From Rhodocyclaceae bacterium (lineage in GTDB: Bacteria; Pseudomonadota; Gammaproteobacteria; Burkholderiales; Rhodocyclaceae): 49,046 nucleotides of DNA. Positions 38,626-44,547 of the stretch are shown piece after piece; position 1 is the first letter of the stretch; every line of letters begins with the position of its first letter. The stretch spans positions 1-49,046 of the forward strand of contig JAABQX010000009.1 of assembly GCA_011391215.1 (NCBI GenBank). The letters run 5' to 3'. A program made the translations under genes and the position numbers. The notes beneath the pieces were generated by a model. It saw only the letters and a program-made list of their open reading frames with translations, was not told the origin of the DNA and did no database searches.

Positions 38626-38777
38626 TAGGGGAGTATGTCGCGGGTTGTTAGACTTGTCCGGTTCTGTAGCGCATGAATTGTCCGCTTTTTTTGTGGCTTG
38701 ACTGGGCCTACCCGGGCGCGGATACTCGTCTCTGCGCCGCCAAACGTGCCACCTCCCTTCCCGCCGGAATCGCCCAC

Positions 38778-40418
38778 ATGCTTGAGAAACTCTCCTCCTT
38801 TCCCGGAATTCCGGGGCCGGTCGTCATCATCGTGATGGACGGCTACGGCCTGCCCAAAACTGACGTCGGCAGCGCCATCGCCGCCGCCCGCAAGCCGACG
38901 CTCGACCGCCTGTTCGCCAGCTATCCGAATATCCGCCTGCGTGCCCACGGCACGGCGGTCGGCATGCCCTCCGACGACGACATGGGCAACTCCGAGGTCG
39001 GGCACAACGCGATTGGCGCCGGGCAGGTCTACAGCCAGGGCGCGTCGCTGGTCGCCAACGCCATCAACGAAGGCGCCATCTGGCGTGGCGAAGCGTGGCA
39101 GCAGATCGTTGCCGGTGCCAAGACGGGGCGCGGCGTGATCCATTTCATCGGCCTGTTCTCCGACGGCAACGTGCACAGCCACATCGACCACCTGAAGGCG
39201 ATGGTGGTTCAAGCCAAGGCTGAAGGGGTCAAACGCGTATGCATCCACGCCCTGCTCGACGGCCGCGATGTGCCGGAAACCAGCGCACTCGAGTACGTGG
39301 TGCCCTTCGAGGCATTTCTTGCTGAAGTCAGCGATGCCGATTTCGATGCCCGTATCGCCTCCGGCGGTGGGCGCCAGAACATCACCATGGATCGCTACGA
39401 CGCGAACTGGTCGATGGTCGACAATGGCTGGAAGGTCCATGTGCTCGGCGAGGGACCACAGTTCGCCAATGCCACGGCGGCGGTCAACGGGCTGCGCCAG
39501 CAGAATCCCGGCACCATCGACCAGGATCTCCCTCCCTTCGTCATCGCCGAGAACGGCAAGCCGGTCGGCACCATCGAGGATGGCGATTCGGTCGTTTTCT
39601 TCAACTTCCGCGGCGACCGCGCCATCGAGATCACCCGCGCCTTCGAGGAAACCGTATTCGACAAATTCGACCGCGTGCGGGTGCCGAAAGTCACCTACGC
39701 CGGCATGCTGCAGTACGACGGCGACCTCAAGCTGCCGGCCCGCTTTCTCGTCGCGCCGCCGGCGATCAAGGACACCATGGGCGAGTGGTTCAGCAAGTCC
39801 GGAATCACCCAGTTCGCCTGCTCCGAAACGCAGAAGTTCGGCCACGTTACCTACTTCTGGAACGGCAACCGCTCCGGAAAATTCGCCGGCGAGACCTATC
39901 AGGAAGTCCCCAGCGACGTCGTGCCCTTCGAACAGCGGCCATGGATGAAGGCGGCCGAAATCGCCGATGCGATGATCTCCGCCCTCAAGAGCGGTGCATA
40001 CAAGACGCTGCGCTGCAACTTCGCCAATGGCGACATGGTCGGTCATACCGGCAATTTCCGCGCGGCGACAATGTCCATCGAAGCCGTCGACCTGCAACTG
40101 GCGCGCATCCTGCCGGTGATCGATGCGCTGGGCGGCGTGGCGCTGATCACTGCCGACCACGGCAATGCCGACGAAATGTACGAGATCGACAAGAAGACCG
40201 GTGAGCCGGCGCAGAACAAGGATGGCTCCTACAAGGCCAAGACCGCACACACGCTGAACCCGGTGCCGCTGATCCTCTACGACAAGGTCAGCGGCGGCAA
40301 ACTGGGCCTGAAGCAGACGGCGACCGCCGGACTGTCGAACATCGCCGCGACCATAGCTAATCTGGTGGGTCTCGAAAAGCACGCCGCCTGGGACGAGAGC
40401 CTGCTGGAAATTCGCTAA
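38778..40418 (+). CDS. gpmI: 2,3-bisphosphoglycerate-independent phosphoglycerate mutase
   Basis: Manganese-dependent glycolytic mutase of the alkaline phosphatase superfamily. From the ATG at 38778 it has 546 residues, starting MLEKLSSFPGI. The earlier track start adds 35 residues unlike the family. IVMDGYGLP and DDDMGNSEVGHNAIGAG carry the phosphorylated Ser and metal ligands. HSHIDHL and ADHGNADEMYE complete the metal site. In E. coli gpmM also neighbours envC, though in a different orientation. Confidence 0.95.
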   Translation: MLEKLSSFPGIPGPVVIIVMDGYGLPKTDVGSAIAAARKPTLDRLFASYPNIRLRAHGTAVGMPSDDDMGNSEVGHNAIGAGQVYSQGASLVANAINEGAIWRGEAWQQIVAGAKTGRGVIHFIGLFSDGNVHSHIDHLKAMVVQAKAEGVKRVCIHALLDGRDVPETSALEYVVPFEAFLAEVSDADFDARIASGGGRQNITMDRYDANWSMVDNGWKVHVLGEGPQFANATAAVNGLRQQNPGTIDQDLPPFVIAENGKPVGTIEDGDSVVFFNFRGDRAIEITRAFEETVFDKFDRVRVPKVTYAGMLQYDGDLKLPARFLVAPPAIKDTMGEWFSKSGITQFACSETQKFGHVTYFWNGNRSGKFAGETYQEVPSDVVPFEQRPWMKAAEIADAMISALKSGAYKTLRCNFANGDMVGHTGNFRAATMSIEAVDLQLARILPVIDALGGVALITADHGNADEMYEIDKKTGEPAQNKDGSYKAKTAHTLNPVPLILYDKVSGGKLGLKQTATAGLSNIAATIANLVGLEKHAAWDESLLEIR

Positions 40419-40530
40419 GCCGAACCGGCTGAAGGCAAACGGACACGGTGATTGGAGGAATATCGACAGGGCATTTCAATCCAAGTATGATGCCGGCCGA
40501 TGCTGGAGCAACCAGTTGTTATAAAAATCG

Positions 40531-40995
40531 ATGCGTGCCTACCTAAAAGATTACACATTCAAGAACGAAGTCCCGCCAGAGCATTTTGTCCATATGACAG
40601 ACTGGCTTCTGCAATGGCGGAAGCGGGAGCCGGATATGAGCTTCTCGCTGGTACTGATCGACTTCACGAATCCTTCTGAACTCGGCAACGCTTTGGGCGC
40701 AAAGTACGCGATGGAACTCGTGCGGCGCGTTGGTAGTGAAATCAACCAAGCCTTGCGGCATACCGACCTCCTTTCCCGTACCCGGGTCAGCAGTTTCTGG
40801 GTACTGCTTCCGAAAGGGGATCCTGACATCGTGCTGTCGAAGCTCGAGCCGATCTTGTCGGCCGCCCGGTCGGACGGGATGGATGCAACCCAATTGCATT
40901 TTCGCAAGCTCAGCATACCGGGGGATAACGCCGGCGAGGTTACTGCGGCTGAGCTTTTGACCCAGATGCAATCACCCGAACGCTTGAAAACTTGA
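40531..40995 (+). CDS. Stand-alone degenerate GGDEF-like domain protein
   Basis: A 154-residue protein that probably consists of a decayed diguanylate cyclase fold. SLVLIDFTNPSELGNALG, ELVRRVGSEINQALRHTDLLSRT and FWVLLPKGDPD follow the helix and strand order of a GGDEF domain, but the signature position reads RVSSFWVLLP instead of GGDEF, so it should not make c-di-GMP. No signal or membrane segment is seen. The start is uncertain: the ATG at 40531 has TATAAA six bases upstream and no ribosome site. Its 3' end runs into direct repeats in front of the ArsR gene. Confidence 0.6.
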   Translation: MRAYLKDYTFKNEVPPEHFVHMTDWLLQWRKREPDMSFSLVLIDFTNPSELGNALGAKYAMELVRRVGSEINQALRHTDLLSRTRVSSFWVLLPKGDPDIVLSKLEPILSAARSDGMDATQLHFRKLSIPGDNAGEVTAAELLTQMQSPERLKT

Positions 40996-41019
40996 AATAC
41001 TTGAAAACTGACAGGTTTT
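40984..41019 (+). promoter_or_regulatory. Direct and inverted repeats upstream of the ArsR gene (possible operator)
   Basis: Three tandem units, TTGAAAAC, TTGAAATAC and TTGAAAAC (40984-41008), are followed by an inverted repeat AAAAC-TGACAG-GTTTT (41004-41019) that ends four bases before the ATG of the ArsR gene. This is a good position for autoregulation. Function is inferred from position only. Confidence 0.4.
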
Positions 41020-41023
41020 ATCC

Positions 41024-41344
41024 ATGAGCAGCCTCGTACTCGCCGATCTGGTTGACCAGACCGAACAAATCGAAATTGCCGCACGCGCCCTGAAGGCGAT
41101 CTCGCACCCATTGCGCCTGAAGATTCTCTGCATCGTCGGCGATCAGGAAGTCTGCGTGCAGGACATCGTCGAAGCCGTCGGCACCTCGCAAAGTAACATC
41201 TCCCAGCACCTCGCGATCCTGCGTGACAAGGGCGTGTTGACCACGCGCAAGGACGCCAACCGCGTGTTCTACCGCGTTGCCGACCAGCGCACCCTGCAAC
41301 TCATCGTGATGATGCGCGAAGTTTTCTGCAGCATGTCCGGGTAA
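41024..41344 (+). CDS. ArsR-family regulator, YgaV/SqrR/BigR-like (probable persulfide sensor)
   Basis: A 106-residue winged-helix repressor-type protein. ISHPLRLKILCIVGD opens the DNA-binding domain, and the recognition helix reads TSQSNISQHLAILRDKGV. It has cysteines at 36, 44 and 102. C36 in KILC and C102 in EVFC are 66 residues apart, the same spacing as the sulfide/persulfide-sensing pairs of SqrR (41/107), BigR (42/108) and YgaV (29/95). The adjacent downstream rhodanese gene, as in ygaVP of E. coli, supports a sulfur role. No ArsR-type metal motif (such as ELCVCDL) is present. Probably autoregulated, given the repeats before its start. Confidence 0.85.
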   Translation: MSSLVLADLVDQTEQIEIAARALKAISHPLRLKILCIVGDQEVCVQDIVEAVGTSQSNISQHLAILRDKGVLTTRKDANRVFYRVADQRTLQLIVMMREVFCSMSG

Positions 41345-41361
41345 GCGGGGAAATTTAACCA

Positions 41362-41781
41362 ATGGAACACGGAATGGAATTCATCCAGCAGAATTTGATG
41401 TGGGCCGGGCTGGCCGCCATCAGCGGCGGCATGCTGCTCTGGCAGGTCTTCAATGGCCCTGGCGGCAGCAATATTTCGGTGGGCGACGCGACCTTGCTGA
41501 TCAACCGGCAGGATGCCATTGTCGTCGACGTGCGCGAAACCGCCGAATGGTCCTCCGGCCATATCCCGAATGCACGCCACATTGCACTGGGGCACCTGGG
41601 CAAGCATCTTTCCGAGATCGAGAAGTTCAAGGAAAAACCCATCATTGTCGTCTGCGCCTCGGGCAACCGCTCGAGCTCGGCCTGCAGCACCCTCAAAAAA
41701 GCCGGCTTCCAGCAGGTATTCAACCTTGCCGGCGGCGTTGGCGCCTGGGGTGATGCCGGCTTGCCGATGACCAAAAGATAA
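41362..41781 (+). CDS. Membrane-anchored rhodanese-like protein (YibN-like)
   Basis: A 139-residue protein with one N-terminal membrane helix (MWAGLAAISGGMLLWQV) and a rhodanese domain. The active-site loop is VVCASGNRSSSA with the sulfur-accepting Cys. VVDVRETAEWSSGHIPNARHI (in part) is the CH2-type region. It lies 17 bases after the ArsR gene and 19 before grxC. In E. coli, yibN heads the yibN-grxC-secB-gpsA operon, so the block is conserved here. It may transfer sulfane sulfur at the inner membrane. The start could also be the ATG at 41374. Confidence 0.9.
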   Translation: MEHGMEFIQQNLMWAGLAAISGGMLLWQVFNGPGGSNISVGDATLLINRQDAIVVDVRETAEWSSGHIPNARHIALGHLGKHLSEIEKFKEKPIIVVCASGNRSSSACSTLKKAGFQQVFNLAGGVGAWGDAGLPMTKR

Positions 41782-41800
41782 ATCGCAAGGAGATTCACCC

Positions 41801-42061
41801 ATGGCCAAGATCGAGATGTACTCCACGGCCGTCTGCCCCTATTGTGTGCGCGCCGAAGCCCTGCTCAAGCGCAAGGGCGTTACCGATATCGAAAAAATCC
41901 GTGTCGACCTCGACCCCAGCAAACGCCAGGAAATGGAAACGCGTGTTCCCGGCGCGCGTACCGTGCCGCAAATATTTATCGACGGCTTCCATGTCGGCGG
42001 CTGCGACGACCTGCACGAACTCGACCGCCAAGGCAAACTCGATCCCTTGCTCGCCGCTTAA
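41801..42061 (+). CDS. grxC: Glutaredoxin 3
   Basis: An 86-residue dithiol glutaredoxin that reduces disulfides with glutathione. The active site is STAVCPYCVRAEALL (CPYC). RTVPQIFIDGFHVGGCDDL binds glutathione through TVP and GGCDD. AAGGAG precedes the ATG. It sits within the conserved rhodanese-grxC-secB-gpsA order. Confidence 0.95.
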   Translation: MAKIEMYSTAVCPYCVRAEALLKRKGVTDIEKIRVDLDPSKRQEMETRVPGARTVPQIFIDGFHVGGCDDLHELDRQGKLDPLLAA

Positions 42062-42114
42062 TTTGGCTGCGGCATTAGAATGCCGCCCTTTCAACCTTCA
42101 CATTCAGGATCATC

Positions 42115-42597
42115 ATGAGCGAAGCCGCACAGGGCAACAATCCCGTTTTCAGCATCGAGAAAATCTACGTCAAGGATCTGTCGCTGGAGGTGCCGAATGC
42201 ACCACAGTGTTTCCTTGAGCGCGAGGCCGCCGAAATCAACCTGCAGATGCAGACGGGTGGCGAAGCAGTCGGCGAGGGCATTTTTAATGTCTTGCTGACG
42301 CTGACGGTCACGGCCAAGATCGGCGACAAGACCCAGTTCCTCATCGAGGCGTCGCAAGCCGGCATCTTCCAGCTTCGCAACATACCGAATGAAGAACTCG
42401 AGCCGATCATCGCCGTCGCCTGCCCCAACATCCTGTTCCCCTACGCCCGCGAAACAGTGTCCGATGCCGTGACCCGTGCCGGCTTCCCGCCGGTATTGCT
42501 GGCACCGGTCAATTTCGAGGCCATCTACCGCGAACGCCTGGTTCAACAACAAACCCAGCAAGCGGCGGCCGGCCTGCACGAAATTCCCATCCAGTAA
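42115..42597 (+). CDS. secB: Protein-export chaperone SecB
   Basis: Holds unfolded precursors and delivers them to SecA. The 160-residue product matches the family, with [20 protein letters not shown] near the start, the central [14 protein letters not shown] and [24 protein letters not shown] (in part). Its TAA overlaps the ATG of the next gene by one base (TAATG). Confidence 0.96.
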
Positions 42598-43028
42598 TGC
42601 GCCTCCCGCTGTTTGTCCTCGCCCTGCTGTTTTCGAGCGTCTCCACGGCGCTCGACTACCGTTCGGTGAGCGAGACAACCACCCTTTACGATGCGCCCTC
42701 GCAAAAAGCCAAGCCGCTCTTCGCCATTGCGGCCGGCACTCCTGTCGAGATGGTTGTCACCCTCGCCGCCTGGGTCAAGGTGCGCGACGCCAAGGGCGAT
42801 CTCGCCTGGATCGAGCAACGCCAGTTGGCGGAGCAACGCAGCGTACAGGTTCGTGCCGAGCGGGCGCAAGTGCGTGCCAGTGCGGCAGAGTCGGCTGCCT
42901 TGGTATTCGAGGCCGAGCCGGATGTACTGCTTGAGCTCGTCGAATCTGCTCCCGCCGGCTGGGCCAAAGTGCGCCACCGCGATGGCCAGCAGGGCTTCGT
43001 AAAAGCTTCCCAGGTCTGGGGCCTGTGA
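42597..43028 (+). CDS. Secreted protein with two bacterial SH3-like domains
   Basis: A 143-residue protein with a signal peptide ([18 protein letters not shown]). Two SH3b-type repeats follow: [22 protein letters not shown] with [15 protein letters not shown] (quoted in parts), then [15 protein letters not shown] with [15 protein letters not shown]. Such domains bind peptidoglycan or peptides. The enzymatic role, if any, is not visible. Translational coupling to secB is expected from the TAATG overlap. It lies between secB and gpsA, where a gene of this kind is often found in betaproteobacteria. Confidence 0.85.
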
Positions 43029-43041
43029 AGCGGAGCCGGTG

Positions 43042-44022
43042 ATGCGCCTGGCGGTATTGGGCGCCGGCGCCTGGGGAACGGCGCTTGCCATATCCTTCGC
43101 CGAGCGTCACGCCGTCACGTTGTGGTCTTGGCAGACCGAGCACGCCGCCTCCATGCAGCGTGCCAAAGAGAATACCGATTTTCTGCCTGGCTACCCCTTC
43201 CCTGACACATTGGACGTCACTGCCGATCTCGCGCTTGCAGTGACTGCGGCCGATCTTGCGATCATCGCCACGCCGATGGCCGGTTTGCGCGCGACCGCCG
43301 GGCAGCTGGCACAAAACGTCCCCAAGCTGCCTTTTCTCTGGGTTTGCAAGGGTCTGGAAACCGGCACGGGATTGCTGCCGCATCAGGCGGTCTTGGAGGT
43401 CCACCCAACCGCACTCTGCGGCGCACTCACCGGCCCCAGCTTCGCCGACGAGGTGGCGCGCGGGCTGCCGGCAGCGATCACGCTCGCCTCAGCCAACGCC
43501 GCGTTTGCCGAAGCCATGGCGCATGAATTGCACGGTCCGCGCCTGCGCCTGTATGCCAACGACGACATCGTCGGTGCCGAGGTCGGTGGCGCAGTCAAGA
43601 ACGTCATGGCCATCGCCACCGGTATCTGTGACGGTCTCGGGCTGGGCCTGAACGCCCGCGCCGCACTGATGACACGGGGACTGGTCGAGATCACCCGCTT
43701 CGGCGTCGCGCTGGGCGCACGGCCGGAAACCTTCATGGGCCTGGCCGGCATGGGCGACTTGATCCTCACCTGCACCGGCGACCTCTCGCGCAACCGGCGT
43801 GTCGGCCTGGCGCTCGCCGCCGGCAAGTCGCTCGCCGACATCCAGCGCGATCTGGGTCATGTTGCCGAAGGCGTGATGACCGCCCGCGAAGTCGCCCGCC
43901 GCGCTGAAGCGCTGTGTGTTGACATGCCGATTACGGCAACGGTGCGTGACCTGCTGGATGGTCATCTGACGGCTGCTGCCGCCGTCGACAGGCTGATGAA
44001 GCGCGACCCCAAGCACGAGTAA
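43042..44022 (+). CDS. gpsA: Glycerol-3-phosphate dehydrogenase [NAD(P)+]
   Basis: Makes sn-glycerol-3-phosphate for phospholipids. The ATG at 43042 (326 residues) follows GGAG by six bases. The track's 43039 start is a GTG one codon earlier. [11 protein letters not shown] is the NAD(P) site, [30 protein letters not shown] with the catalytic Lys, and a helical C-terminus complete the family. It is last in the rhodanese-grxC-secB run. Confidence 0.96.
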
Positions 44023-44035
44023 GCAACGCTCGATC

Positions 44036-44084
44036 GCCGTCCCGCCAGTCCCACGGGGATTTCCTTCGGTCACGCCGACTTTTT
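44036..44084 (+). repeat. Dispersed repeat, copy 11 (long form with internal insert)
   Basis: GCCGTCCCGCC, then AGTCCCACGGGGATTTCC and TTCGGTCAC, then GCCGACTTTTT. The two ends match the family but about 24 extra bases sit between them. It occupies the gap between the convergent gpsA and trmL genes, and its T-run contributes to the trmL TAA stop. Confidence 0.8.
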
Positions 44085-44547
44085 ACACGCTGCCGGAAAA
44101 TTCCTGCTGCCGCCACGCTTCATAGACGGCCACCGCCACAGTATTCGACAAATTCAGGCTGCGGTTCGACGGCATCATCGGCAGTCGCAAACGCTGTTCC
44201 GGTGGCAGGGCCGCCAGCATTTCCGCCGGCAAGCCTCGCGTTTCCGGGCCAAAAATGAAGGCGTCACCCGGCTGGTAAGCCGCCGCATCATGGCGCGTCA
44301 AACCTTTCGTGCTGAAAGCAAAGCGTCGCGCTCCACCCAATGCCGCGAGACAAGCCGTCCAATCCGCATGCACGCGCATCTCGACAAATTCGGCGTAATC
44401 CAGCCCGGCGCGGCGCAGCGAAGCATCGCTGATATCGAAGCCGAGCGGCTGCACAAGATGCAACATGCAGCCCGTATTGGCTGCCAGGCGGATCACATTA
44501 CCGGTATTGGGCGGGATTTCCGGCTGATATAGAACGATCTGGAACAT
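44083..44547 (-). CDS. trmL: tRNA (cytidine/uridine-34-2'-O)-methyltransferase TrmL
   Basis: SPOUT-class methyltransferase for the wobble base of tRNA-Leu. The ATG at 44547 (154 residues) was preferred because MFQIVLYQPEIPPNTGNVIR (as first 20 residues) is the usual start. The track start adds 15 unrelated residues. FGPETRGLP and the C-terminal RSLNLSNTVAVAVYEAWRQ form the knot and SAM site. It is divergent from the mshE gene. Confidence 0.94.
   Translation of the reverse strand: MFQIVLYQPEIPPNTGNVIRLAANTGCMLHLVQPLGFDISDASLRRAGLDYAEFVEMRVHADWTACLAALGGARRFAFSTKGLTRHDAAAYQPGDAFIFGPETRGLPAEMLAALPPEQRLRLPMMPSNRSLNLSNTVAVAVYEAWRQQEFSGSV

Follow-up and report, generated by a model that had tools for sequence, protein, structure and literature searches.

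The window analysed here, a stretch of 49,046 nucleotides, is contig 9 of a genome assembled to 2.33 Mb and 76% completeness, whose nearest named relatives, as judged by the ArsR protein described below, fall in the Rhodocyclaceae sensu lato, for example Sulfuritalea, Sterolibacterium and Sulfurisoma. Its forward strand carries an ArsR-type regulator of 106 residues (41024–41344) directly before a block of genes for a rhodanese, glutaredoxin 3, SecB, an SH3-domain protein and GpsA. The locus thus raises the question of what this regulator senses and whether the genes behind it are its targets. The answer that we consider reasonably probable is that the protein acts as a reactive-sulfur-responsive repressor of its own operon, arsR–yibN–grxC–secB–SH3–gpsA.

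The regulator and its cysteine pair

The reading frame is real by its translation and by a match to Pfam HTH_5 (E=7.7e-14), and, as an earlier note on this DNA had stated, its cysteines C36 and C102 lie 66 residues apart. The same note had equated this spacing with that of the reactive pairs of SqrR, BigR and YgaV. The equation holds for BigR and SqrR, to which the alignment is gap-free, but not for E. coli YgaV, whose pair, C31 and C98, is 67 residues apart (PMC9774250) because the alignment has a one-residue insertion relative to the present protein. C36 and C102 align gap-free with the homologous α2 and α5 reactive pairs of BigR, HlyU and SqrR. Both cysteines are kept, 66 apart, in all 90 related loci, and since the search motifs used to fetch these loci contained neither of them, the conservation of the pair is not due to chance. 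Four more distant ArsR paralogs of relatives keep the pair as well, and it therefore marks a wider sensor group rather than this ortholog alone.

The reactive-sulfur ArsR cluster (SSN cluster 4: SqrR, BigR, HlyU and YgaV) is defined by an α2/α5 cysteine pair (PMC10509353). In the predicted model (37 orthologs, pLDDT 80), C36 is located in α2, C102 at the end of α5 and a further cysteine, C44, just before α3. The best sequence matches are the reactive-sulfur sensors BigR, YgaV, HlyU and SqrR, plus NolR, and the top fold matches are HlyU, BigR, NolR, SqrR and YgaV. The protein thus displays the winged helix, the α2/α5 cysteine pair and, in the rhodanese, the sulfur-related neighbour that are features of the group. 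Membership in the reactive-sulfur group is supported by sequence and fold, kinship being judged from the nearest solved relatives. Against the BigR equivalog NCBIfam NF040642 the protein scores 75.2 bits, below the curated cut-off of 155. A scan of virus contigs found no relatives.

The gene block and its distribution

Downstream of arsR, on the same strand, follow a YibN-type rhodanese with its catalytic C98 in the motif CASGNRS (41362–41781; Pfam Rhodanese, E=1.8e-21), glutaredoxin 3 (grxC, 41801–42061; NCBIfam TIGR02181, 115 bits, cut-off 90), SecB (42115–42597; NCBIfam NF004394, 226 bits, cut-off 181), the SH3-domain protein (42597–43028; Pfam SH3_4, E=2.8e-23) and the glycerol-3-phosphate dehydrogenase gene gpsA (43039–44022; NCBIfam NF000940, 469 bits, cut-off 202). 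From arsR to gpsA the successive gaps are 17, 19 and 53 bases, a 1-base overlap and 10 bases, and the six genes probably form one operon. The terminator-like hairpin on the forward strand 3′ of gpsA (44066–44078) is weak, seven such sites having been found against 3.4 expected.

The downstream rhodanese had been said to mirror ygaVP. An ArsR gene does precede a rhodanese in both cases, but the rhodanese is 40% identical to E. coli YibN (81 bits) as against 33% to YgaP (48 bits), and it is followed by grxC and secB; judged from its sequence it is a yibN ortholog, so that the likeness is an analogy between different gene pairs. Its N-terminus is hydrophobic by inspection. The catalytic cysteine is kept in 97 of 97 ArsR-linked copies and in 18 of 20 copies from relatives without ArsR. 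E. coli YibN (L149:4585–5016) has an aspartate at the position of the catalytic cysteine of betaproteobacterial rhodaneses, and the ArsR-linked copies may, to go by this residue, have a different activity.

The regulator had also been described as inserted into the conserved yibN–grxC–secB–gpsA block. It does adjoin the block, but it stands at the head of it, at the junction of the EnvC side and yibN, and does so family-wide. Of the family genomes sampled, 178 of 249 have the ortholog, as do 49 of 62 genera, a spread that rules out an insertion in this genome alone, and nearly all the family loci examined have it at the head of yibN–grxC–secB–SH3–gpsA. Among loci whose regulator has a cysteine at position 44 and which have enough downstream sequence, the rhodanese is immediately 3′ of arsR in 63 of 64. 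The examined relatives that miss the ortholog have rhodanese–Grx–SecB–SH3–GpsA, or most of it, without ArsR. ArsR is the best conserved member of the block, with a median identity to the window of 80% as compared with 51–66% for the rhodanese, Grx, SecB, SH3 protein and GpsA, in a sample selected by ArsR similarity; another comparison shows largely the same ranking beyond the closest relatives. Upstream of the block, the phosphoglycerate mutase gene (38703–40418) lies on the same strand as arsR, and its product shares 36–38% identity with the divergent mutase of outgroup families; of the loci in the genus, only L007 has this type (93%), and the gene may be a replacement.

In Thiobacillaceae, Hydrogenophilaceae, Gallionellaceae and others the ortholog is mostly found before membrane-fusion/RND pump genes, named by inspection. 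Across several such families an ortholog with Ser44 precedes membrane-fusion/RND efflux genes, with a related promoter element, at L035, L040, L105, L122, L129, L137 and L146. At L042:3476–5233 a diverged ortholog (~60% identity) is divergently oriented beside SoxC-like and SoxD-like genes. RND pumps and rhodaneses are reported neighbours of reactive-sulfur ArsR regulators (PMC12423496), and the outgroup contexts, RND pumps and Sox-like genes, count for sulfur sensing since both have been reported for such sensors (PMC12423496). The sqr or pdo genes that the earlier note proposed to look for in the regulon are absent from the operon. The genome itself encodes two flavocytochrome-c sulfide dehydrogenase flavoproteins as well as DsrL-like and HdrA/Qmo-like proteins (the latter two by inspection), and this set (L171, L172, L169, L176) suggests that the organism is a sulfur oxidiser.

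Promoter and candidate operator

The probable operon promoter, TCGACA-N17-TATGAT (40463–40491, forward strand), is the sole sigma-70-like site in 40380–44100, where 0.9 would be expected by chance. It is located upstream of a degenerate GGDEF-domain reading frame of 154 residues (40531–40995, forward strand; Pfam GGDEF, 27.6 bits), which lacks the GGDEF motif itself and comes between the promoter and arsR. This reading frame is restricted to some members of the genus (L006, L007, L010 and L012) and is missing from L005. Within the promoter, the nearest relatives conserve the stretch 40472–40491 (CATTTCAATCCAAGTATGAT), a possible site of the operator. The element CATTTYAATCSAAGTATGAT is common to the promoters of the window and its closest relatives; a genome that has it contains a single copy, located before this arsR, so that the regulon looks local. 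This subclade element precedes arsR in 8 of the 19 genomes of the genus.

Across the family, an AT-rich element, TATTYTATAMT, which contains a −10 box, is found in 47 of 66 deduplicated upstream regions as compared with 0.035 in shuffled sequence, mostly 36–86 bases 5′ of arsR. The S44 orthologs that precede RND operons have a close variant, ATTTTANTATAT. The reported recognition site of BigR is the −10 region of its operon (PMC5823870), and the position of the family element over the −10 box counts for repression on that account. At L008 the element is present in reverse complement, an orientation more in keeping with a dimer site than with a bare −10 box. The computed symmetry of the element is weak, and the element may therefore be partly or wholly promoter rather than operator. 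When a matrix of the family element was scanned near arsR in the window, nothing convincing was obtained, and its full form, searched for in the genus, matched only before the arsR genes of five relatives. Since the window and its closest relatives thus lack the family element, the operator in this genome is uncertain. The SqrR site ATTC-N8-GAAT was considered for the window element and dropped: L005 carries ATTC-N8-GTAT, but the spacing does not hold in L006.

The third cysteine, competing readings and known systems

Were the protein a reactive-sulfur-responsive autorepressor, its reduced dimer would sit on the promoter and limit transcription of arsR–yibN–grxC–secB–SH3–gpsA. A rise in persulfides or polysulfides would then lead to a sulfur bridge joining C36 of α2 to C102 of α5, the DNA-binding helices would shift, the dimer would leave the DNA and the operon would be induced. 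The rhodanese could subsequently move sulfane sulfur and the glutaredoxin reduce it, as glutaredoxins do in E. coli (PMC6831875), with SecB, the SH3 protein and GpsA increasing alongside as products of co-transcribed genes. The gene, its fold class, its conserved cysteines, the gene order and a promoter element conserved in the family are established here; sulfur sensing, bridge formation, DNA binding, repression and the induction of secB and gpsA are what we infer. Points against the autorepressor are that secB and gpsA may be transcribed from separate promoters, that the window's promoter is without the family element, that many of the host organisms are without known sulfur oxidation and that the sensor has C44 as an extra cysteine.

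This third cysteine, missed by the earlier note, is invariant across the Rhodocyclaceae orthologs sampled, while position 44 is a serine in most outgroup orthologs, as in BigR. On an ArsR tree built from few columns, column 44 itself included, the C44 proteins form a single clade (support 99/95) and the change takes one step. Together with three S44 proteins that precede a rhodanese (L036, L124 and L147) they make up a supported group (98/93), from which it is likely that the rhodanese operon came first and the change from S44 to C44 followed. A rhodanese-adjacent protein with Pro44, L041, is placed elsewhere in the tree on a very long branch, its placement being uncertain, and one distant paralog, L044, likewise has a cysteine at position 44. 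C44 is not the counterpart of the third cysteine of sHdrR, Cys63 (PMC12423496), which by its offset from the pair corresponds to position 49.

These observations invite an extended and rather unlikely reading, in which a three-thiol sulfur sensor evolved in Rhodocyclaceae: Ser44 would have become an invariant cysteine once, after the shift from an RND-pump to a yibN operon, altering inducer selectivity, for example by a C36–C44 bridge or a persulfide relay, and placing SecB export and the GpsA supply of phospholipid precursor under reactive-sulfur control. A single S44-to-C44 change near a change of target operon would offer a natural experiment on the evolution of inducer selectivity in this sensor group.

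Alternatively, C44 and the other cysteines may form disulfides or glutathione mixed disulfides in response to hypochlorite, peroxide or GSSG, which would make the protein a general thiol-redox sensor and the operon one of thiol homeostasis. We regard this as unlikely. An invariant third thiol beside α3 would suit such a sensor, as RexT senses peroxide via α3 cysteines (PMC10509353), and so would the glutaredoxin in the operon and the many hosts without known sulfur oxidation. The nearest characterised relatives, however, react with persulfides, HlyU in vitro gave no response to either peroxide or GSSG (PMC10509353), and the rhodanese neighbour, together with the RND and Sox contexts of the orthologs, fits sulfur better.

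It is also improbable that the regulator is a mere passenger of the block, acting in trans or on itself only, with no effect on the glutaredoxin, secB or gpsA. In E. coli and many relatives the block functions with no ArsR, and the operator of the window is only a candidate, but the arrangement of arsR and block is kept family-wide, the intergenic gaps are short and searches for the promoter elements gave sites before this arsR only. As for a classical ArsR/SmtB sensor of metal or arsenic, metal sensing is unlikely and this reading is a very distant contender: the protein matches the broad NCBIfam HTH_metalloreg subfamily (89.6 bits, cut-off 55) and C44 falls, by eye, at the first cysteine of the α3 CXC motif, but the motif is absent (C44-V45-Q46), the invariance of Q46 in place of its second cysteine argues against metal sensing, the α5 D-x-H...H site seems, by eye, to lack its histidine (D87-Q88-R89), and the operon includes no metal transporter.

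If the protein is indeed a reactive-sulfur-responsive repressor of its operon, a housekeeping operon of secretion and envelope functions would be coupled to intracellular persulfide across the Rhodocyclaceae, a family to which major genera of wastewater and of aromatic degradation belong, such as Azoarcus, Thauera, Zoogloea, Accumulibacter and Dechloromonas. The little-understood YibN rhodanese, whose ArsR-linked copies keep the usual catalytic cysteine, would likewise gain a sulfur-linked context.

The sensor group itself, with SqrR, BigR, HlyU and YgaV, is known; what sets the present case apart is the target operon, apparently undescribed for that group: in the literature searched, no ArsR described at yibN, grxC or secB was found. 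BigR of Xylella fastidiosa (PDB 3pqj/3pqk) is the best phmmer match, with the same fold and a gap-free cysteine pair. It has, however, a serine at the position of C44, and its operon encodes the Blh persulfide dioxygenase and a TauE-type transporter, whereas here the regulator heads yibN–grxC–secB–gpsA. SqrR of Rhodobacter capsulatus and HlyU of Vibrio also share the fold and the aligned pair, but their target genes differ from those found here, and HlyU has no equivalent of C44 in the alignments examined. In the YgaV–YgaP pair of E. coli, an ArsR protein with the cysteine pair, 38% identical between YgaV and the present regulator, likewise stands directly before a rhodanese; YgaP, however, is another kind of rhodanese, anchored to the membrane at its C-terminus (PMC10215317), as opposed to the YibN type here, and ygaP is not followed by grxC–secB–gpsA. 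Finally, E. coli has yibN–grxC–secB–gpsA in the same order, adjoining gpmM–envC, but without an ArsR gene.
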